Part shown: positions 18,269 to 63,917 of the stretch, in pieces
Numbering within the stretch: the stretch's first letter is position 1
Layout: each line of letters opens with the position of its first letter
Assembly: GCF_027925305.1 (NCBI RefSeq)
Contig: NZ_BSDR01000001.1
Span: forward strand, 3,552,501 to 3,616,500
Length of the DNA: 64,000 nucleotides
Source of the DNA: Desulforhabdus amnigena
GTDB taxonomy: Bacteria > Desulfobacterota > Syntrophobacteria > Syntrophobacterales > Syntrophobacteraceae
Direction of reading: 5' to 3'
The notes under the pieces: generated by a model
What the model was told of the DNA's origin: nothing
Database searches by the model: none
Seen by the model: the letters and a program-made list of their open reading frames with translations, nothing else
Position numbers and translations under genes: made by a program

Positions 18269-18455
18269 GGCAGGTGGTATTTGCAGGGAAAACTCAAGGG
18301 GGGGCCGCCGCAATGAGATTCCACGGTTCGCCTGGTGTTGCAATAAAGATTTGTAAAAAAACTGTTTCCCGGTTTTTCTTGGATTCCGGCTTTCGCTGAG
18401 ATCCAGGCTTTTTTGAAGAGATACGGAACTTGTTTCTTTGGTGGATGGACATGAA

Positions 18456-18530
18456 GAGCCGTGTGAATCGAGAGGTTCACGTACGGATCTGTGAGATCGT
18501 GAGGGTGAGATTCCCCTGGGTTATTCGACT
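18456..18530 (+). mobile_element. 3' fragment of a group II intron (domains V and VI)
   Basis: GAGCCGTGTGAATCGAGAGG then TTCACGTACGGATCTG is the conserved domain V hairpin of bacterial group II introns, and the following GAGGGTGAGATTCCCC reads as domain VI. There is no intron-encoded protein upstream, so only the 3' tail is left. It abuts the GNAT cassette 3' end. The preceding 18269-18455 shows nothing else. Confidence 0.7.
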
Positions 18531-18561
18531 GGAGGGTGGGAGAAAACCCCCCGTTACCCGA

Positions 18562-19074
18562 TTAGCCATCCGCCTTGAATCCATCGTGAAAAGTGACGGT
18601 GCCCTGCGGAGTATGCCCGTCGAAAGACAGAGCGAAGAAGACCTCTTGTGGTACTCCCTCATGCACAAGGCCGGGTACATTTTGGAACCCGAACTTCCTG
18701 TAGTAATCCGGATGCCCCACGAGACAACATCCTTGAGCCTTCATATCTTTCAGTCGTGATAGCCCTTCCCGTATCAGGGTTTTGCCGATGCCTCGGCGCT
18801 GGTACGATGGCAATACCGAAACAGGCCCAAGGCCGTACCAGTTCCGGGTGCCGTCCGAAAGGGTCAGGGGAGAGAAGGCAATATGCCCTACCACACGGCC
18901 ATCCACTTCTGCGACAAGCGATATCGTGAGAGCCTTGGCGGCGCGTAGTGCTGCTATGATAAATTGCTCAGTGTGATTGCTGATCTCCAGAGTCTTAAAT
19001 GCGGCGGCAGTCACCTCGGTTATTGCGCCCACATCGGCATCGGTTTCGCTTCTGATTACGATCTTCAGATCCAT
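18562..19074 (-). CDS. GNAT-family N-acetyltransferase (YhbS-like), cassette gene
   Basis: 170 residues. Acetyl-CoA-dependent transferase fold: VVGHIAFSPLTLSDG (beta4), GLGPVSVLPSYQRRGIGKTL (motif A with the R/QxxGxG/A pyrophosphate loop) and GHPDYYRKFGF near the C terminus, as in the YhbS branch. Substrate is unknown. The start at 19074 gives a standard-length protein; the upstream extension is low-complexity and overlaps the repeat-like sequence at 19109. It lies on the minus strand, one attC-like site downstream of higBA, which fits an integron gene cassette. The cassette's own attC at its 3' end seems replaced by the intron fragment at 18456. Confidence 0.88.
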   Translation of the reverse strand: MDLKIVIRSETDADVGAITEVTAAAFKTLEISNHTEQFIIAALRAAKALTISLVAEVDGRVVGHIAFSPLTLSDGTRNWYGLGPVSVLPSYQRRGIGKTLIREGLSRLKDMKAQGCCLVGHPDYYRKFGFQNVPGLVHEGVPQEVFFALSFDGHTPQGTVTFHDGFKADG

Positions 19075-19161
19075 GGGTTTCTTCTTTCTCTTTCTTGCTG
19101 GCCAATCGCGGCGCTCACCTGGCGGAGCGAAGCGCAGCCAGCCGAACACGGGCCATCACCG

Positions 19162-19250
19162 GCCCTAACAACGCCGTCGATGAGCTGTGGACAATACCAA
19201 CCAAATGCGTCCTGCGTGGTTCGGGTTCGGGTGCATGGCCTCGTTAGGGC
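19162..19250. other. attC-like site (59-base element) between higA and GNAT cassettes
   Basis: An 89-nt imperfect palindrome bounded by inverse core GCCCTAAC and core GTTAGGGC, matching the RYYYAAC...GTTRRRY rule. It lies 75 nt after the higA stop on the minus strand and about 90 nt before the GNAT start, the position expected of a cassette recombination site. Inner arms pair only partly, as is usual for attC. No integrase gene is in the window. Confidence 0.7.
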
Positions 19251-19324
19251 CTGTTGCGATCCAAAGAGCCGCCCGCCTGCAGGGCAAATCAACTCTGGCA
19301 TGCAAGTCACTGAGCGTGTGGTCC

Positions 19325-19612
19325 CTATGCTGCAGAGAGTCGTTTGACTCGCAGTTCGCCCCTGCGCTGTTCAGCCTGCCAAAGATCGTACTGCACTTGC
19401 TGGTTTAGCCAGCTTTCTGGGGTGGTATCAAAGGCAATCGAAAGCCTGATAGCCATCTCAGGACTTATCCCGGTATGGCCATTGAGAATGCTCGATAATG
19501 TTTTGCGGCTTACCCCCAAAGCCTTAGCCGCTTCCGTTACTGATAGATCGAGTGGCTCAAGGCAAAGCCTCTTTATGATTTCTCCTGGATGGGGAGGATT
19601 ATACATCTGCAT
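19325..19612 (-). CDS. higA: HigA-family antitoxin
   Basis: 95 residues. Begins [19 protein letters not shown], the signature of HigA/VapI-type XRE antitoxins, followed by the helix-turn-helix [20 protein letters not shown]. Located 8 nt downstream of the toxin gene in toxin-first order, as usual for higBA. GAGGTGA precedes the start. It should neutralise HigB and autorepress the pair. Confidence 0.93.
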
Positions 19613-19620
19613 TTCTCACC

Positions 19621-19899
19621 TCAGTGATAGTCTTCGTAATCAACCACGTCGGCATCTTTGCCGACGAAACGAAAGGTGACACGCCAGTTGCCGCTCACTT
19701 TCACTGCCCAATCATCTTGGCGGTCACCGCTTAACTCATGAAGATCCAAACCAGGGAGACTCATATCCTGAGGGCAGGTGGACGCCTGAAGGCGGCCCAA
19801 GATGAGGCGCAATCGTTCAGCATGCTTTGGCTGTATACCAGCTTTGCTACCAGTTGTAAAAAAACGCTCCAATCCCTTGTGTTTGAATCCTATGATCAT
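19621..19899 (-). CDS. higB: HigB-family toxin (RelE superfamily)
   Basis: 92 residues, RelE/HigB mRNA-interferase fold. Features seen: FKHKGLERFFTTGSKAGIQP, LPGLDLHELSGDRQDDWAVK and the terminal VSGNWRVTFRFVGKDADVVD YEDYH-type end of the HigB family. By family it would cleave mRNA on the ribosome. The start lies about 36 nt after the core of an attC-like site, so higBA forms a compact cassette of about 0.7 kb. Toxin-antitoxin cassettes are commonly held to stabilise cassette arrays. Confidence 0.93.
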   Translation of the reverse strand: MIIGFKHKGLERFFTTGSKAGIQPKHAERLRLILGRLQASTCPQDMSLPGLDLHELSGDRQDDWAVKVSGNWRVTFRFVGKDADVVDYEDYH

Positions 19900-19935
19900 G
19901 TCTGCAATGTAACATGGGTGGTTACGGGTTACAAG

Positions 19936-20018
19936 GCGCTAACGCCCAAAATCAACGGCGGGCGGTCACGGACTTGAGAATACAGCAACACGCTTCCCCG
20001 CCCGTCCGGTGCATTTTG
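19936..20018. other. attC-like site interrupted by a group II intron
   Basis: Starts with inverse core GCGCTAAC and has inner arms CGGCGGGCGG and CCGCCCGTCCG. The right core is completed only after removing the intron: GCATTTTGT joins TAGCAC at 21182 to give GTTAGCAC. This is the insertion pattern known for group IIC-attC introns. Confidence 0.62.
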
Positions 20019-21181
20019 TGTACGCCCGGCATGGGCGTGAACTCATGGGGTGCAAGCCCCCTGTACGTGAATCCTGCAAGTGTGTTTCACGCTGGCACAA
20101 GTACTAGCTGAAGGTAAGGGCGGAACCGCGAGGGACCGTCCGGAGGAAGCCGGAGTACAAAGAGGTGACCGGGCAAAAGTCAGCCGAGGTCATACTAGCC
20201 AAACGCCTCCCGTAATGGGGAGGACACGGTGAAGGACCGAACACAGAGAAAGGAGTTGGAGTCTCCATGAGTTCCCATGACACGTTGAGTCCGACCGGAG
20301 GAGTGACCGTGGGGCACAGTGTGGAATCAGCCAACCCGGATGAAAACCTGCTGGAGCGGATTCCCTCCCGGGAAAACCTGCTGCAGGCGTGGAAACGGGT
20401 CAAAGCGAACAAGGGAGCGGACGGAGTGGACGGCATGTCCATCAAGGCCTTCCCCGATTACACCCGTGACCACTGGGAAGAAATCCGTGACTCGCTATTT
20501 GCAGGTACCTACCAACCCTCACCGGTCCACAGGGTGGAGATTCCAAAAGCGACGGGCGGGAGAGCGGGTAATGCGAAGCGTTCAACGCTTTCTCAAGCGT
20601 ACCCTCAAGCTCCGGGTCAACCAGGAAAAGAGCCGGGTGGCGCCTACCGATCAAGCTACCTTCCTTGGCTTCACCTTCCGAGGGGTCAGCATCCGCTGGA
20701 CCGACAAAGCCTTCCGGGAATTCAAGCGTCGTGTCAAGGAGCTCACATGCCGAAGCTGGTTCGTCTCAATGGACTACCGGTTCCAGAAGCTCGCACAGTA
20801 TCTGCGCGGCTGGGTGAACTACTTCGGGATCGCCGACTACTATCGGCCGATCCCCGAGATCGACCACTGGATCAGACGTCGCGTGCGTATGTGTTACTGG
20901 AAGCAGTGGCGCCGGCCCCGCACGAAAGTGCGCGAACTTTTCAGGCTCGGCACCTCGCTTTCAGCGTCCATTCCTGTGGCAATGAGCCGTAAAGGACCCT
21001 GGCACCTGGCTCGCACTCTCGCTACCCAGACCGGCATGACCAACAAGTGGCTCAAGGCTCAGGGGCTTCTGGCTGTCAAAGAGCTGTGGGTGAACATCCA
21101 CTACCCGGCTCCGGCCCGGTAGACTCTATGAACCGCCCCGTGCGGACCCGCAAGCGGGGTGGTGCGCCATGAGTGCAAGAT
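20019..21181 (+). mobile_element. Group IIC-attC intron with internal deletion
   Basis: About 1.16 kb, compared with roughly 2 kb for intact relatives. The 5' part (GTACGCCCGGCATGGGCG, then GCAAGCCCCCTGTACG) and the 3' domain V (GAACCGCCCCGTGCGGACCC followed by GCAAGCGGGGTGG, near 21130-21163) frame a deleted reverse-transcriptase gene. It lies inside an attC-like site and is oriented opposite to the cassette genes, as described for this class. The exact 5' boundary is uncertain by two bases. Confidence 0.75.
20267..21122 (+). pseudogene. Group II intron reverse transcriptase/maturase, internally deleted
   Basis: The N-terminal part (20267 to about 20560) carries RT domain 0/1 sequence (KANKGADGVDGMSIKAFPDY, SPVHRVEIPKATGG). 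It then joins, in a different frame, the end of the RT and the maturase domain (QEKSRVAPTDQATFLGFTFR, LRGWVNYFGIADYYRPIPEI, ending at 21122). RT motifs 2-6, including the YADD active site, are missing: about 180-200 codons deleted plus a frame change. It cannot encode an active RT; the intron could move or splice only with help in trans. Confidence 0.88.
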
Positions 21182-21188
21182 TAGCACG

Positions 21189-21466
21189 TAACTGTACAGG
21201 AGATGGGGGATGGTCCCCCGATGTCGGCTTGCAGGAGCAGGCATCAAACCACCGTAAGCTGCGTCGGTTAAGAACCGGGGTGGTGAGCATTACGGAAAAG
21301 GCGTAACATGATTATGTCAGGTGTGGGATAAGAAGGCGAGTGAAAACGAACCACTGAGGACGTGTCGAAAGCATGACGATGGCATCAAAAGCGGGGTCGC
21401 ACCACTGCTCCGTGATAAGTTCGGGAGAAACCTGTTTACTGCCTGAATGGTGCCCGGCATAAAGGT
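21189..21466 (+). mobile_element. Probable 5' fragment of a second group II intron
   Basis: The segment with GATAAGAAGGCGAGTGAAAA, GTGTCGAAAGCATGACGATG and GGGAGAAACCTGTTTACTGC, ending CCCGGCATAAAGG, resembles the structured domain I leader of bacterial group II introns. No RT gene follows; an IS4-type transposase lies next. It may belong to the same intron type as the domain V fragment at 18456, but with the order reversed. Confidence 0.42.
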
Positions 21467-54296: not shown

Positions 54297-54917
54297 CTAC
54301 TTGCCGGATTCCTCCCCGGCTTTGAAGCCCAGCTCAAAAGCCTTCCGGTTCACTTCCAGGATGCGCCCGGGAAGGATCTTTTTCAGCGCACCCTGCCAGC
54401 TCTGTTTGGAGATGGGGAGGCATCCGGTTCCTGCCAGAATTCCCACCATCACGATGTTGGAAGCCCTGTCCGATCCCGCCTGTTTGGCCAGGGCCATGGC
54501 ATCCACCCAGAGGAGGCGGCCGACCTTTTCTTCCGTCATCTTGCGGAGCTCTTCCACATCCGGGTAGGTGCTCTGCCCCGTGGCCACGGTGAAGGGAACG
54601 AGGGGAATCGTGCTGGATATCACCATTGTTTTGGGATTGCATTTGGGGAGAGCCCGCACCGCTTCCAGGGGTTCGAACGCCATGAGAATATCGGCTTCCC
54701 CATCGGGGATCGTCGGGCTGAAAACATCTCCCACCACCACGGAAGATTCCACGACTCCACCGCGCTGAGCCATTCCGTGGATTTCGCTCATGGCGACTGA
54801 AAGCCCCTCTTCAAGGGCCGCTTCGCCCACCAGGCGCGTGGCCAGAAGCGTTCCCTGGCCGCCTACCCCTGTAAAAAATATCCGCATGGCTTTGAATGCC
54901 TCTTTTGCCTGTGTCAT
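54297..54917 (-). CDS. iorB: Indolepyruvate:ferredoxin oxidoreductase, beta subunit
   Basis: 206 residues, gamma-type POR domain. FTGVGGQGTLLATRLVGEAA is the family N-terminal motif, followed by EIHGMAQRGGVVESSVVVGD and the central ADILMAFEPLEAVRALP. With IorA it catalyses the reversible, ferredoxin- and CoA-dependent decarboxylation of aryl-pyruvates to aryl-acetyl-CoA. Its ATG overlaps the iorA stop (TGATG). Last gene of the long minus-strand operon starting at livK. Confidence 0.94.
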   Translation of the reverse strand: MTQAKEAFKAMRIFFTGVGGQGTLLATRLVGEAALEEGLSVAMSEIHGMAQRGGVVESSVVVGDVFSPTIPDGEADILMAFEPLEAVRALPKCNPKTMVISSTIPLVPFTVATGQSTYPDVEELRKMTEEKVGRLLWVDAMALAKQAGSDRASNIVMVGILAGTGCLPISKQSWQGALKKILPGRILEVNRKAFELGFKAGEESGK

Positions 54918-56800
54918 CACTCGTTTCCTCCCTTGCCCTCACCGACCCGCTTGGGCTTGATGGATTTACAGATTTGAGAACAAACGCTGCATCCGCTGCA
55001 GAGGGACTCATTGATCCGGATACATTCTTGCCCCGACGCGGAACGTTCCCAGACGAAAGCCGGGCATCCCAGTTCCGTGAGACACCTTTTGCACAGATCG
55101 CAGGAGGATGCATCCACCTGGAAGACGACTTTGGTTTTCTTGTGCAGCATGCGGTTTTCATAGAGAGGGCAGGGGCTCTTGGAGATGAGAACCGATACTC
55201 CGGGTTCTTTCATGCTTTCACGCAGGTTTTGAAGCACATCCTGGGTTTTCTGGACCTGCAACGGATTCACCGTGAAGACACGTTCCACTCCGCATCCCCG
55301 CACCAGGTTTTCCAGGCTGACCTTGGGAGTGATTTTACCCTGGGGGGTCAGTTCGATTCCCGGATGCGGCTGGTGGCCCGTCATGGCGGTGGTGCCATTG
55401 TCCATGATGACCAGCAGGAAGCGGTGGTCATGGGAAACGGCATTCACCAGGCCCGTGATACCGCTGTGAAAGAAGGTGGAATCCCCGATGAAGGAAACGA
55501 CGGGTTGATCCAGCACCTTGCTGAAGCCACCGGAAGAGGAAACGCCCGATCCCATACAGATGAGAAAATCGGCCATCTTCAGGGGAGGCAAAACGCCGAG
55601 GGTGTAGCACCCGATGTCCGAAGGATAAATGGCATCTTCCCCGAAGACCTTCTTCACGGAATAGTAGGTGGCCCGGTGAGGGCAGCCGGGGCAAAGGTTG
55701 GGCGGGCGCATGGGAAGCTGAGGCACGGCAAAAACCTGGGGCGGCTCATAGCTGACGCCGAAAAAGGACTGCAGTGCGCGCTTCACTTTGACGGCATCCA
55801 GTTCGAAGGCGCGAGGGATCAGCTGTGCTCCCTTGCCCGCGACCTCAACCGGCAATCCGGCTTCCTGGGCCGTCATCCGAACGGCCTCTTCCAGGAAGGG
55901 TTCCAGCTCTTCCACGACGAGCAACTTGTCCAGCCCTTCCAGGAAGTTGCGGATGAGTCCCTTGGGATGAGGGAAGGTGAATCCCAGCTTGAGGATCTTT
56001 ACCTTGTCTTCGATGCCGAGATCGCGCACCGCGTCTTTCACATAGAGGTAGGATACGCCGCTGGTGATGATGCCCCATTTCCCCTGGCCCTCGGTGAAGT
56101 TGAACGGGCTTCGGTCCGCTTCCTCCTGGAGCTTTGCGACCTTCTCCAAAAGAGCCAGCCTCAGTTTGCGTCCCACCATGGGGATGACCACCAGGTTGAA
56201 GGGGTCTTTTTTGAATTCCCCACTGGGCGCATCGGTGGGGAGGTCCCCCAGGGTGACGGGGCCGCGGCAGTGGTTGACTCGCGTGGTCGTTCGCAGCATG
56301 CAGGGGATCTGGAATGTTTCCGAAATTTTCAGGGCTTCCAGGGTCATCTTCCTGGCTTCTTCGGGAGTGGTGGGTTCCAGCATGGGGACATTCCCCATTT
56401 TGGCGTAATAGCGGTTGTCCTGTTCGTTCTGGCTGGAATGGAGGGAAGGGTCATCGGCGACGACCATCACCATTCCGGCCTTCACTCCCACATAGGCGAG
56501 AGTCATGAAGGCGTCCGCGGCCACATTCAACCCCACATGTTTCATGGAGCACAGGCTCCGCACTCCGGAGACGGCGGCGGCGCCGGCCGTTTCCACGGAA
56601 ATCTTTTCATTGACGGAATATTCCACATAGACCCCGGCATCGGGTCCTATCTGGTAGAACCGGTCAATGATTTCGGAAGACGGGGTCCCGGGGTAAGCCG
56701 CTACAAAACGCACATTGCCTTCCAGGGCTCCGCGAACGATGGCTTCGTTGCCCAGAAGCAGGTGTTTCTCCCCGCTTTTGGGCGTCAGTAGTTCATGCAT
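54917..56800 (-). CDS. iorA: Indolepyruvate:ferredoxin oxidoreductase, alpha subunit
   Basis: 627 residues. Pyrimidine-binding domain (GNEAIVRGALEGNVRFVAAY PGTPSSEI-type start), TPP-binding domain with GDSTFFHSGITGLVNAV and MDNGTTAMTGHQPHPG, and C-terminal 4Fe-4S clusters (CDLCKRCLTELGCP; CSGCSVCSQICKSIKP). Complete. The reaction is aryl-pyruvate + CoA + oxidised ferredoxin = aryl-acetyl-CoA + CO2 + reduced ferredoxin, and is reversible. It lies directly downstream of paaK, which makes aryl-acetyl-CoA from the free acid; operon-level control by a Phe/Tyr leader suggests the biosynthetic direction. Confidence 0.95.
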   Translation of the reverse strand: MHELLTPKSGEKHLLLGNEAIVRGALEGNVRFVAAYPGTPSSEIIDRFYQIGPDAGVYVEYSVNEKISVETAGAAAVSGVRSLCSMKHVGLNVAADAFMTLAYVGVKAGMVMVVADDPSLHSSQNEQDNRYYAKMGNVPMLEPTTPEEARKMTLEALKISETFQIPCMLRTTTRVNHCRGPVTLGDLPTDAPSGEFKKDPFNLVVIPMVGRKLRLALLEKVAKLQEEADRSPFNFTEGQGKWGIITSGVSYLYVKDAVRDLGIEDKVKILKLGFTFPHPKGLIRNFLEGLDKLLVVEELEPFLEEAVRMTAQEAGLPVEVAGKGAQLIPRAFELDAVKVKRALQSFFGVSYEPPQVFAVPQLPMRPPNLCPGCPHRATYYSVKKVFGEDAIYPSDIGCYTLGVLPPLKMADFLICMGSGVSSSGGFSKVLDQPVVSFIGDSTFFHSGITGLVNAVSHDHRFLLVIMDNGTTAMTGHQPHPGIELTPQGKITPKVSLENLVRGCGVERVFTVNPLQVQKTQDVLQNLRESMKEPGVSVLISKSPCPLYENRMLHKKTKVVFQVDASSCDLCKRCLTELGCPAFVWERSASGQECIRINESLCSGCSVCSQICKSIKPKRVGEGKGGNE

Positions 56801-56944: not shown

Positions 56945-58264
56945 TCAGACTTCGCCGGTCGCGGAATTTCTGAGATCCACGAAGAGCTTGACCCTTCCAT
57001 TTTCTCTTTCGAGGGAGCCTTTTTCCACGAGTTTGATGCTGGGGTGGATGCCGATGAAGTTGGCCACCTTCTGTCCCATGATTTCCACCAGGGCCCGCTG
57101 TTCCCTCATTTTATCGAAGAAAAACTGTTCCGTGATTTCCACCCGGATTTCCAACTGGTCCCGGTGCCCGTGGCGGGTGGCAACGAGCTGATAGACCGGG
57201 CGCTCTCCCTTGATCTGTTCCAGGACATCTCCGATGCGCTCGGGGATGATATTGATGCCTTTGATCACCACCACGTTGTCGCAGCGTTGCAGGATGCGTC
57301 CGATACGCCGGAAAGTCCGCCCACACCCGCATGTATCGGGAATGATGCGGCAGAGGTCTCCCGTGCGGTAGCGAATGACGGGAAAAGCCTCTTTGGTGAG
57401 AGTCGTGATGACCAGCTCGCCTTCTTTTCCCGGTTCCAGGACTTCGCCCGTTTCGGGATCGATGGTCTCGGCGTAGAAATGGTCCTCCTGGATGTGCATT
57501 CCCCGCTGTTCCAGGCATTCGCCTGCGACTCCGGGCCCCATGACCTCGCTGATGCCGTAGTTGTCCGTGACTTTGACAAAGAGCCGCTCTTCGATTTCCC
57601 GCCGCATGTTTTCTGTCCAGGGTTCGCCTGCGCAGATGCAGTACTTGAGGGAAAGACGCTTGGGATCGATCCCCATTTCCTGAAGCTTGTCGGCCACCAC
57701 GAGCGAATAGGAGGGAGTGGAAGCCAGCACGGTGGTCCGAAAGTCCTGCATGATCTTGATCTGCCGTTCCGTGTGGCCGACCGATGTGGGCAGAACGGAA
57801 GCACCGATGCGTTCTGCGCCGTAATGGATCCCCAGACCTCCGGTCAGAAGGCCGTATCCGAAGGTGACCTGAATCACGTCGTCTTCCGTGACCCCCCCGG
57901 CACTGAGGATACGCGCCACCAGAGCGCTCCAGTTCTTGAGGTCTTCCCGGGTGTACCCCACCACCCGCGGGTTCGTCATGGTGCCCGACGAAGAGTGGAC
58001 ACGCACCACCTCGCGCAGGGGCACGGCAAACATTTCATAGGGGTAGCTGTCGCTTACGTCCTGACTGGTGGTGAAGGGCAATCGCTGCAAATCCTTGAGT
58101 TCCGTCAGGTCATCTTCGGGACGGAAGTCAATTTCCTTGAAACGGCGATGGTAGAAAGAGACGTTCCGGTAGACCCGGTTCAAAGTGGCCTGCAGCCGCT
58201 CCAATTGGAGCTGCTCCAGTTCGTCTCTCGACATACATTCCTTGTCCGGTTCCCAAATGGGCAT
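56945..58264 (-). CDS. paaK: Phenylacetate-CoA ligase (aryl-acid:CoA ligase)
   Basis: 439 residues, PaaK family of the adenylate-forming enzymes. ATP-binding loop VHSSSGTMTNPRVVGYT, YGLLTGGLGIHYGAERIG, CICAGEPWTENMRREIEERL, YGISEVMGPGVAGEC and RTGDLCRI are in place. The C-terminal domain has GRILQRCDNVVVIKGINIIP. It activates phenylacetate or related aryl acids with ATP and CoA. It sits between the transporter genes and iorAB, all on one strand, so its product or substrate is shared with IorAB. Confidence 0.94.
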   Translation of the reverse strand: MPIWEPDKECMSRDELEQLQLERLQATLNRVYRNVSFYHRRFKEIDFRPEDDLTELKDLQRLPFTTSQDVSDSYPYEMFAVPLREVVRVHSSSGTMTNPRVVGYTREDLKNWSALVARILSAGGVTEDDVIQVTFGYGLLTGGLGIHYGAERIGASVLPTSVGHTERQIKIMQDFRTTVLASTPSYSLVVADKLQEMGIDPKRLSLKYCICAGEPWTENMRREIEERLFVKVTDNYGISEVMGPGVAGECLEQRGMHIQEDHFYAETIDPETGEVLEPGKEGELVITTLTKEAFPVIRYRTGDLCRIIPDTCGCGRTFRRIGRILQRCDNVVVIKGINIIPERIGDVLEQIKGERPVYQLVATRHGHRDQLEIRVEITEQFFFDKMREQRALVEIMGQKVANFIGIHPSIKLVEKGSLERENGRVKLFVDLRNSATGEV

Positions 58265-58467: not shown

Positions 58468-59199
58468 TCAGGCATCCACGATCTGCCTGGCGCCCTTTCC
58501 GAAATACGCTCTCTGCACTTCCCGGTGTTCCAGCAGCATGGCCCCCTCGCCCTGGAGCACCACTTTTCCCGTTTCCAGAACATATCCCCGGTCCGCGATC
58601 TGGAGGGCCGCGCGTGCATTTTGCTCGATCAGCAAAATGGTTCGGCCTTCCTTGCGCAGTTCCTGGATGATCTTGAAAATCTCCTTGATGACAAGAGGGG
58701 CCAGCCCCATGGAGGGTTCGTCGAGCACCAGGAGTTGAGGCCGGGACATGAGGGCCCGGCTGATGGCGAGCATTTGCTGTTCTCCACCGCTGAGGGTCCC
58801 CGCCAGTTGAGTGCTCCGCTCCCGCAGGATGGGAAAACGCTCCAGCATACGGGCCATGTCATCTCTGAGCTGCCGGGAATTGCGGCGATGGATGAACCCC
58901 CCCATTTCCAGGTTGGCTTCCACGGAAAGGGTCGAGAAAATCTGTCTCCCCTCGGGGACGAGAGCCACGCCCCGCTGCACGATATCTTCCGGTGAAAGCC
59001 CTTCAATGGCCTGTCCCTGAAATTCTATCGTGCCCTTTTGAGCCCGGTTCAACCCGCAAATGGTATTGACCAGAGTGCTCTTCCCCGCGCCGTTGGCTCC
59101 AATGAGAGCCACCATTTCCCCAGCTTTCACATGGAGAGAAACCCCTTTCAGGGCATGAATGTTTCCGTAATAGGTATGAACACTTTTAACTTTTAACAT
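58468..59199 (-). CDS. livF: Branched-chain-type ABC transporter ATP-binding protein LivF
   Basis: 243 residues. Walker A GANGAGKSTLV, signature LSGGEQQMLAISRALMSRP, Walker B LLVLDEPSMGLAPLV, and switch His in ILLIEQN context. The LivF subtype is shown by the short C terminus and VSLHVKAGEMVALIGANGAG start. Fifth gene of the operon. In this context the cargo may be aromatic or branched amino acids, or aryl acids. Confidence 0.95.
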   Translation of the reverse strand: MLKVKSVHTYYGNIHALKGVSLHVKAGEMVALIGANGAGKSTLVNTICGLNRAQKGTIEFQGQAIEGLSPEDIVQRGVALVPEGRQIFSTLSVEANLEMGGFIHRRNSRQLRDDMARMLERFPILRERSTQLAGTLSGGEQQMLAISRALMSRPQLLVLDEPSMGLAPLVIKEIFKIIQELRKEGRTILLIEQNARAALQIADRGYVLETGKVVLQGEGAMLLEHREVQRAYFGKGARQIVDA

Positions 59200-59319: not shown

Positions 59320-59425
59320 GCCTATTCTAAAAACTCCTCAATAGCCCGACACCCCCCTTTTATTCCCCCCAAGGGGGGTGAGGGGGTTGTTTCGATGACA
59401 CTGCGAGTTTTTGGATAGACTCTTA
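59320..59425. repeat. MITE-like element between livG and livF
   Basis: Ends CCTATTCTAAAAACTCCTC and GAGTTTTTGGATAGACTC are imperfect inverted repeats; the core is CCCCCCAAGGGGGG. The right end includes the livG stop codon (minus strand TAA at 59425-59423), mirroring the element at the lctP stop. Confidence 0.65.
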
Positions 59426-60211
59426 TATCCCCTCGCCGAGATACGCCTCGATGACGGCGGGATTCTCTTTGATCTCCTCGGGAGTCCCCGTCGCCAGAGG
59501 TTCCCCGTAGTAGAGCACCAGGATGCGGTGGGAAATGTCCATGATGAGGTTCATGTCGTGTTCCACGAGCATGACCGTAATGCCCCGCCCGCAGATGCGT
59601 TGAACCAGTTCCCCCAGTTCTTCCGTTTCACGCATGTTGAGCCCTCCCGCCGGTTCGTCGAGAAGGATTAACCGGGGTTCCGTGGCCAGGGCTCTCGCGA
59701 TTTCGAGAATTTTCTGCTTGCCGAGGGGAAGTGTGCCCGCGGGCAGTTGCGCCTCCGCGGCGAGTCCCACGAATTCGAGATGCGACAGGGATTCTTCCCT
59801 GATGTGCTTTTCTTCGCGGCGCATGCCGGGGAAACGAAGCCCCGTGGACCAGAAGCCGCTTCGAGTCTTGGGGTGGCGTCCGACCATTATATTTTCAAGA
59901 ACACTCATGGACTTGAACAGGGCGACATGCTGAAAGGTGCGGGAGATCCCGTAGCGGGCGATCTGGTGAGGCAGCGATCCGTTGATTTCCCTGCCGTCGA
60001 AGCGCACCTGCCCCGCAGTCGGAGTGAGCAGCCCGCTGATACAGTGGAAGAGGGTGGTTTTTCCTGCGCCGTTTGGGCCGATCACCGCCTGAATGATTCC
60101 CGGGGGAACGGAGTAGTTGATGCCTTTGAGAGCGGTGATGCCTCCAAACTGCATCTGGATGTCCTGGATCTCCAGCAGAGGAGCCGATGATGGAGTTGAA
60201 TTCTCTGTCAT
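59423..60211 (-). CDS. livG: Branched-chain-type ABC transporter ATP-binding protein LivG
   Basis: 262 residues. Walker A GPNGAGKTTLFHCISG, the LivG-type long insert after it, GISRTFQHVALFKSMSVLEN (Q-loop region), signature-equivalent LPLGKQKILEIARALATEPR, Walker B LILLDEPAGGLN, and VEHDMNLIMDISHRILVL. Overlaps livM by 4 nt (ATGA). Its stop codon is contributed by the terminus of the MITE-like element. Confidence 0.95.
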   Translation of the reverse strand: MTENSTPSSAPLLEIQDIQMQFGGITALKGINYSVPPGIIQAVIGPNGAGKTTLFHCISGLLTPTAGQVRFDGREINGSLPHQIARYGISRTFQHVALFKSMSVLENIMVGRHPKTRSGFWSTGLRFPGMRREEKHIREESLSHLEFVGLAAEAQLPAGTLPLGKQKILEIARALATEPRLILLDEPAGGLNMRETEELGELVQRICGRGITVMLVEHDMNLIMDISHRILVLYYGEPLATGTPEEIKENPAVIEAYLGEGI

Positions 60212-61191
60212 GAGCCACCTTCCTTCATTGCGGAAGCACGGGAATTTCGGGAACCGATCGCGAGGGGAACGAGGGAGATCAACCCCTTGGGCAAAAAGAG
60301 CGCCACGATGAGAAGGATAGCGCCATAGACCAGGATTTCAAAGTCGGCGAAAACCTGCAGCCATTCGTTGCCGATAAAGGTGAGGAGAATCGTTCCAAGG
60401 ACAGCTCCCCAAAGACTCTGCATGCCGCCGACCATGACCATCAGCATGAAGCGGACGGACCACATGAGGTTGAACGAACCGGGATTGAGAAAGGTCACAT
60501 AATGGGTGTAGAGGCTCCCCGCCAGGGATGCGAAGACGGCCCCAAGCACGAACACCTGGACCTTGTAGCGGGCCGTAGGAACACCCATGGCTTCGGCTGC
60601 CGTCTCTTCTTCATGAATGGCGCGCAGCGCCCGCCCCACACGGGAATGCAGTATATGAAAGCAGAAGAGGAGCCCCAGAAAGACAATCCCCCAGATGAGA
60701 TAATACCATGCGATTTCACTGGTGATTTTCCAATTTGCGATGCTGAGCCCCGGAATGTCCACCATTCCGGACGGCCCTCCTGTCCATTCGATCTCCTCGT
60801 TGAGGATGATATGCACGATGACCCCAAAGCCCATCGTCGCCATGGCCAGGTAGTGTCCCTTGAGGCGCAGAGCGGGAATGCCGAGCATCCACGCCACAAA
60901 GGCGGCCAAGCAGGCTCCGACGGGCATCGCAGCCCAGGGATTCATGTCGAAATGCCCCGTCAAAATGCCGGAGCTGTAAGCGCCTATACCGAAAAAGGCG
61001 GCTTGTGCCAGAGAAATCTGGCCCGCATAACCCATGAGCATGCTCAGACCCAGGGTCACGAGGGTGAAAATCCCGGCGAAAACCATGACATCTATGTAAT
61101 GGGAAATCGCTCTGACGGGCTGGACCAACCAGGGGAAAACAGCTATGAACAATCCAAATCCCAGGAAGATCCACCATTCTTTCTTACTCAT
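60208..61191 (-). CDS. livM: Branched-chain-type ABC transporter permease LivM
   Basis: 327 residues, polytopic inner-membrane permease with about eight to ten hydrophobic segments. Family motifs GLSMLMGYAGQISLAQAAFF and GRALRAIHEEETAAEAMGVP (EAA-like loop) are present. The ATG at 61191 lies 13 nt after the livH stop; a longer in-frame extension to 61368 would lie inside livH and is rejected. Confidence 0.95.
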   Translation of the reverse strand: MSKKEWWIFLGFGLFIAVFPWLVQPVRAISHYIDVMVFAGIFTLVTLGLSMLMGYAGQISLAQAAFFGIGAYSSGILTGHFDMNPWAAMPVGACLAAFVAWMLGIPALRLKGHYLAMATMGFGVIVHIILNEEIEWTGGPSGMVDIPGLSIANWKITSEIAWYYLIWGIVFLGLLFCFHILHSRVGRALRAIHEEETAAEAMGVPTARYKVQVFVLGAVFASLAGSLYTHYVTFLNPGSFNLMWSVRFMLMVMVGGMQSLWGAVLGTILLTFIGNEWLQVFADFEILVYGAILLIVALFLPKGLISLVPLAIGSRNSRASAMKEGGS

Positions 61192-61204
61192 CTTGAAAAC
61201 CTTC

Positions 61205-62107
61205 TCAGAATTTTTTGAGCTTCGCCGCCTCGCCGCTTCCAAAGAGCCCTTCGGGTTTGAAAAAGAGGGCCAGCAGGAGCAGGACCAGGGCCACGGCATC
61301 TTTGTAACCGGAAGAGAGATACCCCGCGCAAAAGGATTCGGCCAGGCCCAAAAGGGCTCCAGCCACAAGAGCTCCGAAGAAATTGCCTAGACCTCCGAGG
61401 ACCGCCGCTCCAAAACCTTTCAATGCCAGGAGCGCCCCACGATCGTACTGCATGAGGGAGATGGGAGTGATGATCACTCCGGCGGCAGCTCCGATGGCGG
61501 CGCTCAGCACGAAAGAAAGCAGCACCATCTGGCGAACGGGAATGCCCACCATGCGGGCTGCGTTGGGGTTGTCGGCACAGGCGAGCATGGCCTTCCCGTA
61601 GACGGAGCGCTGGAAGAACACCGTGAGGCAGACGACTACGAGGGCGCTCACGCCGAGAACCCACAGTGCCTGCGGCTGAATGGCCGCCCCACCGACCATG
61701 ATGGGGCCTCCCGAACTGAAGGCGGGCAGGCTGTAAGGGTCTTTTCCCCACACGTACATGGCGGAACCCTGGAGCAGGATGGAAACCGCGATGGTGATGA
61801 TGATGAGGGAGAGAACACTCGAGTCCCTGGTTCGGCGGATCACGAACCGCTCCATGGCATATCCGACGATCCCCGTCATGAAAACGGCCGCAAAAAAGGC
61901 GATGAAAATGGGCAGATGAAGCGTTCCCACAAAAAAAACGGCAAATAAGCCGCCCAGCATCACAAATTCGCCCTGCGCAAAGTTGATGATTTCCGTGACG
62001 TTGTAGATGATATTGTAACCGATGGCCACCAGCGCATAGATGACCCCGATGGTGAGCCCGCTCACCGTGTATTGTAATAAATCCGTGCCCAACATGAACC
62101 CATCCAC
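61205..62107 (-). CDS. livH: Branched-chain-type ABC transporter permease LivH
   Basis: 300 residues, polytopic. Motifs: LTIGVIYALVAIGYNIIYNV, EIINFAQGEFVMLGGLFAVF and the EAA-like loop MLACADNPNAARMVGIPVRQ. The start may be 62107 or 62095; AAGGAG is 16 nt from the first. It follows livK after a 316-nt gap holding a large perfect inverted repeat, a common place for differential expression of binding protein and permease. Confidence 0.94.
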   Translation of the reverse strand: MDGFMLGTDLLQYTVSGLTIGVIYALVAIGYNIIYNVTEIINFAQGEFVMLGGLFAVFFVGTLHLPIFIAFFAAVFMTGIVGYAMERFVIRRTRDSSVLSLIIITIAVSILLQGSAMYVWGKDPYSLPAFSSGGPIMVGGAAIQPQALWVLGVSALVVVCLTVFFQRSVYGKAMLACADNPNAARMVGIPVRQMVLLSFVLSAAIGAAAGVIITPISLMQYDRGALLALKGFGAAVLGGLGNFFGALVAGALLGLAESFCAGYLSSGYKDAVALVLLLLALFFKPEGLFGSGEAAKLKKF

Positions 62108-62317: not shown

Positions 62318-62364
62318 GATCCCTGCCCGATCCCCCTTTGGCAAAGGGGGATCGGGCAGGGATC
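62318..62364. repeat. Perfect 23-bp inverted repeat between livK and livH
   Basis: Left arm 62318-62340 (starts GATCCCTGCCCGATCCCCC) and right arm 62342-62364 are perfect reverse complements separated by one base. A very stable hairpin with no T-run; it could stabilise the livK mRNA 3' end. Related to the CCCC-rich repeats elsewhere only in base composition. Confidence 0.85.
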
Positions 62365-62423: not shown

Positions 62424-63605
62424 TTACCAGGGAGCCAGGGCCCAGTTTCCGTCTTTTACGATGACCATTTCCAGGTCTTCCTTGCTCAAGCCGTTGTGGT
62501 CCTGAGGCGAGAAGTTGAAAATTCCGTGCATTCCGATAAAATTTTTAGTGTTTTCAATGTGATCTCGGATCTTGGCCGGGTCGGGGCCCACGGCCTGCAG
62601 TGCGGCGAGAGCAAGCTGAGTGGCGTCCCAGGCGTGCCCGCCGAAAGAAGAAATGGGTTCTTTGTACTTTTCTTCATAGGCCTTGGTGTATTCCATGATG
62701 ACCTTCTTCTGGGGTTGATCGTCCGCCAGCAGGGGGCCGACGTTGACGCGGGCGAGAGGCAACAGGACCCCCTCAGCGGCCTTGCCGGCCAGTTCCAGGT
62801 TTTTCAGACTGCCGAAGCCGTGGCTCTGGTAGAGGGGGATGGCATCCATGCCGAGATCACGCCAGTTCTTGATGGCCAGGATCTGCGTGGGGCCGACGGA
62901 CCAGTTGACGATGGCCTGGGGCTGTGTGCCGCGGATTTTCGTGAGCTGGGGAGTCAGGTCCGTATCCTGAGGGCCGAAGCGCTCGTCTGCCACGATGGTG
63001 ATGCCGTATTCGGGTGCGAGTCCCAGCAGTTCTTCCCGCCCGCTCGCTCCGTAGCCGGTGGAATCGGTCATGATGGCGACTTTTTGAATGCCTTTGGCCT
63101 TCATGTAATCATAGAGTTTTCCAACCACGTGTTTGTCGGAACCGGCAACTTTGAAGATCCATTTGCGGCTTTCGATGGGAGTGACAATTTTATAGCTCGT
63201 GGCGCAGGAAATGAGGGGAATCTGGGCCTCTTCCGCAACGCTCAGGACGGCGAGGCTCTCACCGCTTCGGGTAGGTCCAATGATAACAGGTACTTGATCC
63301 CGCTTGATGAGCTTTTTTACCGCGAGATTGCATTTGGTGGCGTCGCTCTCGTCGTCATACACGATGAGTTCGATGGGATGCCCGTTGATGCCGCCCTTCT
63401 TGTTCACTTCTTCCACGATCATTTCCGCGGTCTTCTTCTCGGGTTCTCCCAGGAAGGACGCCACACCCGTGATGGAAAAGACTGCCCCGATCTTGTAGGG
63501 CTCCGCACCTGCCCATACGCTGGAACTGCAAGCCACGTTCAAAACAGCTCCCAACAGGAATGAAAAGGAAAGCGTTACCCCAATCCATTGCTTCAAGCGT
63601 CTCAT
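62424..63605 (-). CDS. livK: LivK/LivJ-type periplasmic substrate-binding protein
   Basis: 393 residues. N-terminal signal (IGVTLSFSFLLGAVLNVACS; the NVAC could be a weak lipobox), then type I periplasmic-binding fold (YKIGAVFSITGVASFLGEPE, KVAIMTDSTGYGASGREELL, GHAWDATQLALAALQ). GAGGAG lies 5 nt before ATG 63605. First structural gene of the operon, 48 nt after two tandem terminators. LivK-type proteins bind branched or aromatic amino acids and, in several cases, aryl carboxylates; the ligand cannot be decided by eye. Confidence 0.93.
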   Translation of the reverse strand: MRRLKQWIGVTLSFSFLLGAVLNVACSSSVWAGAEPYKIGAVFSITGVASFLGEPEKKTAEMIVEEVNKKGGINGHPIELIVYDDESDATKCNLAVKKLIKRDQVPVIIGPTRSGESLAVLSVAEEAQIPLISCATSYKIVTPIESRKWIFKVAGSDKHVVGKLYDYMKAKGIQKVAIMTDSTGYGASGREELLGLAPEYGITIVADERFGPQDTDLTPQLTKIRGTQPQAIVNWSVGPTQILAIKNWRDLGMDAIPLYQSHGFGSLKNLELAGKAAEGVLLPLARVNVGPLLADDQPQKKVIMEYTKAYEEKYKEPISSFGGHAWDATQLALAALQAVGPDPAKIRDHIENTKNFIGMHGIFNFSPQDHNGLSKEDLEMVIVKDGNWALAPW

Positions 63606-63652: not shown

Positions 63653-63682
63653 AAAAAAAAGCCGTGGATGCAAAACCACGGC
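63653..63682 (-). terminator. Second intrinsic terminator in the liv leader
   Basis: On the minus strand GCCGTGG-TTTTGCAT-CCACGGC is followed by eight T residues, just before the livK ribosome binding site. A back-up attenuator or an independent control stem. Confidence 0.85.
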
Positions 63683-63692
63683 TTCAGACAAT

Positions 63693-63736
63693 AAAAAAAG
63701 CCGCGGGCGAATCCCTTTTTGCGGTCCGCCCACGGC
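63693..63736 (-). terminator. Attenuator terminator (segments 3:4) of the liv-paaK-ior operon
   Basis: On the minus strand GCCGTGGGCG (3) pairs with CGCCCGCGGC (4), 10 bp with one G-U, followed by TTTTTTT. Segment 3 also belongs to the antiterminator at 63721-63774. Confidence 0.88.
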
Positions 63737-63774
63737 CTCGATTTCAAAGGCATAAGGATGCAGGGGCAGACCGC
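63721..63774 (-). promoter_or_regulatory. Antiterminator (segments 2:3)
   Basis: GCGGTCTGCCC (63774-63764) can pair over 11 bp, one G-U, with GGGCGGACCGC (63731-63721), which would hide segment 3 from the terminator. Segment 2 can instead pair with GGGCGGAACCG at 63841-63831 (segment 1, one bulged A), so the three structures are mutually exclusive. Confidence 0.8.
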
Positions 63775-63830
63775 CTGAGGTAAGCGTAATAGAAGCAATA
63801 AAAGACTCTTTCGAACGTTTTCCGGCCCAT
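63744..63830 (-). CDS. Phe/Tyr-rich leader peptide of the attenuator
   Basis: 28-codon ORF beginning MGRKT, then FERVFYCFYYAYL, with three Phe and four Tyr within 12 residues, ending in TGA between segments 2 and 3. The control codons lie between segments 1 and 2, as attenuation needs: a ribosome stalled there leaves segment 2 free to form the antiterminator, while a ribosome reaching the stop covers segment 2 and lets the terminator form. The AAAGGA site is 13 nt upstream, a rather long spacing. A second frame from 63843 encodes six Leu codons in a row, but has no stop before the terminators and is judged less likely. Confidence 0.75.
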   Translation of the reverse strand: MGRKTFERVFYCFYYAYLRRSAPASLCL

Positions 63831-63887
63831 CGGTTCCGCCCATCCTTTTGTCTCGATTGTTTGTTGATTGAATTGTGAGTGAAATTT

Positions 63888-63917
63888 CTTATAAAAAGAT
63901 CGTTCTCCTTTTGTCAA
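63888..63917 (-). promoter_or_regulatory. Sigma-70 promoter of the liv-paaK-ior operon
   Basis: TTGACA (63917-63912) and TATAAG (63893-63888) are 18 nt apart, or TTATAA at 17 nt. The predicted start near 63881 gives a leader of about 275 nt before livK. Confidence 0.8.

Follow-up and report, generated by a model that had tools for sequence, protein, structure and literature searches.

A likely tyrosine-sensing attenuator with a six-segment relay upstream of livKHMGF-paaK-iorAB in Desulforhabdus amnigena

Leader codons tell which amino acid an operon supplies. In Desulforhabdus amnigena, a Tyr leader precedes a first liv-paaK-ior operon and a Phe leader precedes a second operon, and both gene sets are annotated for aromatic transport and degradation. 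How is the first of these operons controlled, and in which direction do its enzymes run? The leader examined here lies on the minus strand of the window (the whole stretch of 64,000 nucleotides that was analyzed). In our judgment, livKHMGF-paaK-iorAB is likely controlled by a ribosome-mediated attenuator that responds to charged tRNA-Tyr (or, in the related family f3, to tRNA-Phe) by means of a six-segment relay, the operon itself most likely serving salvage.

A conserved leader and its tyrosine codons

The leader begins with a putative sigma-70-type promoter, TTGACA-18 nt-TATAAG (63888..63917; TTGACA at 63917-63912, TATAAG at 63893-63888), from which a transcription start at ~63880 is predicted. 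A generic promoter scan did not flag this promoter, probably because the second hexamer ends with G instead of T; the proposed assignment stands on the hexamers and on their recurrence in relatives, where TTGACA...TATAA-like pairs are similarly placed 5' of the leader. The leader peptide ORF, MGRKTFERVFYCFYYAYLRRSAPASLCL (63744..63830; ATG at 63830, TGA at 63744; 28 codons), is backed by orthologous Tyr-rich leaders, a frame test and its codon pattern, and contains a run of Phe and Tyr residues at FERVFYCFYYAY (63803-63780).

Six segments of this RNA can pair. Segment 1, GGGCGGAACCG (63831..63841), pairs with segment 2, GCGGTCTGCCC (63764..63774), in the MFE fold of the untranslated leader. 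Segment 2 lies within the leader ORF and pairs either with segment 1 or, as antiterminator 2:3, with segment 3, GCCGTGGGCGGACCGC (63721..63736). The partner of segment 3 is thus either segment 2 or segment 4, TTCGCCCGCGGC (63711-63700), which with the T7 that follows it (63693..63711) makes terminator 1; segments 2 and 3 flank the leader stop codon. Segment 5, AAGCCGTGG (63676..63684), pairs with segment 6, CCACGGCTT (63667-63659, followed by T8 to 63653; 63653..63667), as terminator 2, or alternatively with segment 4 as a candidate relay antiterminator. Both terminators, 3:4 with T7 and 5:6 with T8, are GC-rich hairpins, and they end 48 nt 5' of the livK ATG (63605). An earlier sequence-only reading of this DNA had described the promoter, the 28-codon ORF, the Phe/Tyr cluster and segments 1-4, with the stop codon between segments 2 and 3; all are present. 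Terminator 2 falls within the range covered by that reading and is missing from its description, as is the ability of its 5' arm to pair with segment 4.

The leader RNA folds with z = -3.3, none of 200 shuffles being equally stable. A scan of both strands of the 64 kb returned a single site where a Y/F-rich mini-ORF is followed by two terminators, and 12 first-order Markov simulations returned none. The minus-strand leader and attenuator layout at 63653-63917 is confirmed as real, and the evidence that we would hold decisive for the leader being real is its conservation in dozens of genomes.

LivK relatives were taken from 60 genomes and their upstream regions were read. The same leader layout precedes livKHMGF-paaK-iorAB in members of the family, the order and the class, the relatives compared including Syntrophobacteraceae genomes, Desulfacinum infernum, D. 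hydrothermale and Desulfoferrobacter suflitae; examples of their leaders are MISMFLRKLYYYYYYTYFGRSAPVPL, MVTPREYYLYIYFGRSVPVHL, MIGAAANSDRYYYYYYYYNVLPTAAQ and MAFSTRQTVRQSYYYFFYYYNGEGSVH. Where the contig is long enough, the gene order is kept together with the leader, with few exceptions such as L105 (G021:C30), in which a Tyr leader and livK are followed by no livHMGF, paaK or ior in the next ~8 kb. Leaders of family f3 are rich in Phe (MTGLKRSFRGFFFCFFRKGEPAMGQKLYP), and at one f3 locus (L098, G035:C80) livK is present twice in tandem, an attenuator preceding each copy: the first leader is of the Tyr type, KNYYYYYYV, and the other of the Phe/Tyr type, MFYFYFYFFT. No leader precedes an orphan livK that lacks the operon (L020/L112), the leader at L008/L104 is decayed, and a scan found none upstream of the livK relatives (~54-62% identical) of Desulfobacteraceae/Desulfobacterales genomes. 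A covariance model of the leader (R1), also used for the genome and phylum searches below, matches 37 of 39 genomes in the order (E<=1e-3) and 42 of 56 in the class (E<=1e-7). The sequence-only reading would have been undermined by a leader ORF or pairings that are not conserved in relatives; both are found class-wide, and its attenuator interpretation is supported.

The amino acid that is sensed depends on the frame. A start codon is within reach of the Tyr frame in 38/38 leaders, of the Leu frame in 8/38 and of the third frame in 5/38. A leucine-sensing attenuator would fit a liv operon, and the +2 frame of the same nucleotides does read SLLLLLLRL and is open here with an ATG (MGGTDGPENVRKSLLLLLLRLPQ); moreover, UAY runs always give YUA (Leu) codons two bases on. 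Yet, besides the rarity of its start codon, this frame has a stop within the run in many relatives, and homologous RNAs precede aroG/tyrA/pheA (Tyr/Phe) and trpE/trpB (Trp). The frame test over 38 leaders led us to reject the leucine reading, which is hardly credible. Among the leaders that can be aligned, Tyr occupies two codon positions in 21/21, with both TAT and TAC in use, and differences peak at third codon positions (811 vs 549 and 573). As expected of an attenuator, the leader is thus a short ORF, conserved in relatives, in which the codons for one amino acid cluster. The conserved and presumably regulatory residue is Tyr, Phe taking over in f3 only, and the Phe/Tyr leader proposed from the sequence alone keeps its Tyr part, Phe being dominant only in f3. 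That the attenuator senses Tyr is, all told, highly likely.

Alternative pairings and a candidate relay

The antiterminator and an intrinsic terminator are mutually exclusive and overlap the end of the ORF. The 2:3 pairing comprises 11 bp in 18/22 aligned leaders, and 4:5 in this leader comprises 9 bp (-13.7 kcal/mol). In the 22 leaders of livKHMGF-paaK-iorAB, 96.7% of the cells of 3:4 and 5:6 are paired and six pairs show double changes, values that exceed those of all 500 shuffles. For 2:3 and 4:5 in the same leaders, the paired share of cells is 93.6% and covariation is slight, because the sequence is highly conserved; interlocked pairings would explain such strong conservation. Across the phylum, 99 leaders were aligned with a model fitted to 3:4 and 5:6 alone, so that the test of 2:3 and 4:5 is free of bias towards them, and were compared with 300 shuffles. 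Over these leaders, 4:5 is paired in 97.1% of cells (top shuffle 94.7) with 31 double changes (top shuffle 15), and 2:3 in 85.4% (top shuffle 82.7) with 29 double changes (top shuffle 20), counts that are inflated by kinship and set against shuffles that keep relatedness, so that the pairings are supported, short of proof. The non-predicted pairing 3:6, taken as a control over the 99 leaders, is paired in 91.3% of cells (top shuffle 90.7) with 20 double changes (top shuffle 16); it exists solely through the likeness of the two terminators and is weaker than 4:5. A typical change runs across the whole chain of segments 3, 4, 5 and 6, from GCCGTGG/CCACGGC to GCCATGG/CCATGGC. The 4:5 pairing is therefore conserved and covarying, as expected of a his-type relay, with moderate strength.

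Folding of the nascent RNA yields both states. When a ribosome occupies the Tyr codons, 2:3 is the first to form, and after segment 5 has been made the minimum contains both 2:3 and 4:5; when the ribosome sits at the stop codon, or when the leader is untranslated, the fold is 3:4 with 5:6. For the full-length RNA, the MFE state with 3:4 and 5:6 is more stable in every case, even with segment 1 masked, and the antiterminated state would therefore be kinetic and timing-dependent, as in other attenuators. The comparison with the classical pheA/trp geometry made in the sequence-only reading holds for segments 1-4 and fails for a four-segment layout, since there are six segments and two terminators that follow the logic of the his leader.

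Given the anatomy, conservation, reading frame, covarying alternative pairings and gene context, we infer ribosome stalling, the ligand and the direction of regulation as follows. When Tyr is plentiful, the ribosome would pass through segment 2 and block 2:3, so that 3:4 and 5:6 would form and transcription would end at one of the two tandem terminators. An untranslated leader would form 1:2, with the same terminating effect. When Tyr is scarce, the ribosome would stall on the early Tyr codons and cover segment 1; 2:3 would then form, segment 4 would be freed and would take segment 5, and a single decision of the ribosome would thus prevent both terminators. The six-segment relay is proposed because the operon would be uninducible unless terminator 2 were also prevented at Tyr shortage. 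The opposite logic, in which high Tyr or Phe arrests the ribosome in the manner of TnaC and induces a catabolic operon, would suit genes that are usually annotated as catabolic. It is very improbable, since long codon runs, the 1:2 protector and intrinsic terminators that overlap antiterminators mark a sensor of starvation, and the leader sequence outside the Tyr run varies freely, unlike that of an arrest peptide.

A more serious objection, though still an improbable one, is that the tandem terminators are merely redundant, segments 1-4 acting alone as the switch and 4:5 being a side effect of the likeness of the two terminators. GCCGTGG is common to segments 3 and 5, and part of the 4:5 complementarity could come from it, and a comparison of duplex energies, which alone is not decisive, finds 4:5 stronger than 3:6 in 34/52 leaders but weaker in 17. 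Against redundancy, an unregulated terminator 2 would stop read-through when the operon is induced, and 4:5 covaries above the shuffles and above 3:6. Furthermore, terminator 1 lacks its U-tract in leaders of two families (L024 and L026 in f6; L034 and L099 in f3) that keep terminator 2 and the 4:5 pairing; control there must therefore pass through 4:5, since the ribosome can reach the one remaining terminator only by way of 2:3, 3:4 and 4:5. Finally, only four sites in the genome have GCCGTGG-N3..18-CCACGGC, and these leaders account for two; the motif is thus no general habit of terminators. Taken with the covariation, these patterns make the 4:5 relay likely.

Operon content, regulon and the case for salvage

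All genes of the operon lie on the minus strand. The substrate-binding protein LivK (62424..63605; Pfam Peripla_BP_6) is followed by the permeases LivH (61205..62107) and LivM (60208..61242, start codon uncertain) and the ATPases LivG (59423..60211) and LivF (58468..59199), in an order that is conserved in relatives. Next come a paaK-like gene for an AMP-forming aryl-CoA ligase (56945..58264), which matches TIGR02155 (8e-151), a score that falls under the NCBIfam equivalog cut-off, and in the PDB the phenylacetate-CoA ligases 2y27 and 2y4o; iorA, for the alpha subunit of indolepyruvate:ferredoxin oxidoreductase (IOR; 54917..56800; TIGR03336, 766 bits, exceeding the cut-off of 651); and iorB, for its beta subunit (54297..54905, start uncertain; TIGR03334, 204.6 bits vs a cut-off of 205.8). 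Gaps of 140-320 nt between several of these genes may leave room for internal promoters. Between livK and livH, a perfect 23-bp inverted repeat with a 1-nt center (62318-62364; GATCCCTGCCCGATCCCCCTTTG / CAAAGGGGGATCGGGCAGGGATC) looks like a repetitive extragenic palindrome.

In a PDB sequence search, the best solved relatives of LivK are 3sg0, 4dqd, 3uk0, 3tx6, 3ukj, 4jb0 and 7ylt (132-160 bits), among which we count aromatic-acid binders of Rhodopseudomonas palustris and a Variovorax binding protein; the Leu/Ile/Val binders of E. coli reach 43-49 bits only. The LivK of the second operon, paaK-ACT-liv, has 7ylt as its top match. LIV-type binding proteins of R. palustris bind aromatic acids (PMC3223731), and the iad binding proteins of Variovorax belong to the B-III aromatic subcluster, one of them binding indole-3-acetate (PMC10374108).

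The attenuator on livKHMGF-paaK-iorAB is not isolated, as the same RNA stands ahead of aromatic biosynthesis genes in this genome and in the phylum. Five covariance-model matches at E<=1e-3 were found in the genome, all with Y/F leaders and all before aromatic amino-acid or paaK-liv operons. Besides the leader described above, they precede DAHP synthase (MVQLIFSGLFGYYYFYYYTTRLPEVR); 3-dehydroquinate synthase II (aroB') and chorismate mutase-prephenate dehydratase (pheA), followed, as read by eye, by aroD, aroE and aroA-like genes (MTGQAFFDYYFYYYFPASGELR); prephenate dehydrogenase (tyrA; MRTLHACYYCYYCSGSYRGVRGARSD); and the second operon, paaK-ACT-liv, with its Phe leader (MFDWFFRFSRSQFFGGFFFGRPACGGAK). 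At C1:82401, where the genome has a third livK/paaK operon, inspection showed no Trp leader. In related families, Trp leaders precede DAHP synthase and trpE.

At the scale of the phylum, 116/297 genomes have a match at E<=1e-6. Sixty matches from outside the class were read, and Tyr/Phe/Trp-rich leaders were present in the top 20/20 and in 34/40 further matches; the genes behind them, identified by eye, include aroA'/aroB', DAHP synthase, trpE, tryptophan synthase beta (trpB), aminotransferases and LIV-type binding proteins. Among the six others, at least three (L200, L220, L222) show the same architecture before acetolactate synthase, and the RNA family may extend to branched-chain amino acids. 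Aromatic leader attenuators of this RNA family also precede N-acetyltransferase-like genes, an unexpected target assigned by eye, at L176, L195 and L207. In f5/f6, a Phe-containing leader of the same RNA family precedes a TPR-like gene (L225, L226, L228, L229), and in G041, G045 and G047 a LivK paralogue lies ~3 kb downstream.

The homologues DAHP synthase, aroB'-pheA, tyrA and trpE all make the amino acid of their leader; liv-paaK-ior does so only under salvage. The direction of the enzymes that we infer, from regulatory logic and gene content, is as follows: arylacetates such as 4-hydroxyphenylacetate would be imported and activated by PaaK to the CoA ester, reductive carboxylation by IOR would then give the arylpyruvate, and transamination would yield Tyr or Phe. 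Since the switch would open on Tyr shortage, the operon is most likely a salvage operon, and since it would do so within a regulon that includes aroG, tyrA and pheA, a route of Tyr/Phe supply is the simplest account. Salvage of aryl acids towards Tyr and Phe is, on balance, the probable direction, and liv-paaK-iorAB is more likely to serve it than catabolism.

Biochemically, AMP-forming PaaK favors thioester formation, and IOR can oxidize arylpyruvates. The latter capacity, the frequent transport of amino acids by LIV-type transporters and the generic branched-chain labels given to LivK by Pfam and NCBIfam would suit an operon that, under the same attenuator, imports aromatic amino acids, paaK and ior being oxidative or by-products of operon structure. 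We regard this as unlikely, if the least so of the alternatives weighed here: the closest solved relatives of LivK are aromatic-acid binders, a degradation switched on at Tyr scarcity would be futile, and the second paaK-ACT-liv operon has a Phe leader. For salvage, a precedent is provided by Methanococcus maripaludis, in which, according to work cited in PMC4162585, aryl acids are the substrates of a second route to the aromatic amino acids with IOR, and IOR can run in reverse in the assimilation of aryl acids by methanogens. With slightly better than even confidence, we further propose that a phylum-wide family of double-terminator relays coordinates aromatic amino-acid synthesis and salvage, the two liv-paaK operons, annotated as degradation, being arylacetate-to-amino-acid salvage operons with reductive carboxylation by IOR. 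If true, it becomes directly testable which way PaaK and IOR run in syntrophic and sulfate-reducing bacteria, and many anaerobes would make protein from arylacetates released by amino-acid fermenters.

Relation to known attenuators

Leader-peptide attenuation itself is already known. The enterobacterial trp and pheA attenuators likewise combine a short ORF with many codons for the amino acid under control, the 1:2, 2:3 and 3:4 alternatives and an intrinsic terminator, and starvation opens the operon. In contrast, the present leader has six segments, two terminators, a stop codon 3' of segment 2 and Tyr instead of Trp/Phe, and its target is a transporter with an aryl-CoA ligase and IOR. The six-segment relay logic is shared with the his leader, in which A:B, C:D and E:F compete with B:C and D:E (PMC10989985). 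There, U residues follow E:F only and the last hairpin alone is a terminator, whereas here the equivalent of C:D, 3:4, has a U-tract and is also a terminator, as in most relatives. Attenuators were predicted in 2005 ahead of tyrA operons, including aroA'-aroB'-aroQ-pheA-aroF-tyrA of Desulfovibrio vulgaris (PMC1173090, Table 7). These predictions likewise put aromatic biosynthesis under attenuation in bacteria of the same broad group, and the available part of that paper describes no leader peptide, relay, shared RNA family or liv-paaK-ior target. The M. maripaludis route shares aryl-acid precursors and IOR as a key enzyme; it is archaeal, and the portion of PMC4162585 at hand gives no attenuator and no link to LIV transporters or PaaK.

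A literature search limited to open-licence papers, and as such weak evidence, returned no description of Tyr leader peptides, paaK-ior attenuators or attenuation in sulfate reducers that matches this system, in agreement with the sequence-only reading, which had known of no such attenuator for this gene set. No earlier description appears to exist of the target operon, of a relay with two terminators or of the RNA family, which spans the phylum and is absent from Rfam, and the salvage reading of liv-paaK-ior is new as far as our searches show. At gathering and relaxed thresholds, Rfam returned no match to a Phe, Trp, His, Leu or Thr leader family or to a T-box. As an RNA family absent from Rfam, these leaders would allow the amino-acid regulons of a whole phylum to be annotated, and they would offer a natural system in which a single ribosome decision controls two terminators. 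Elsewhere in the window, three Rfam group II intron matches (RF00029, RF01998 and RF01999) lie on the + strand at 18454-21322.
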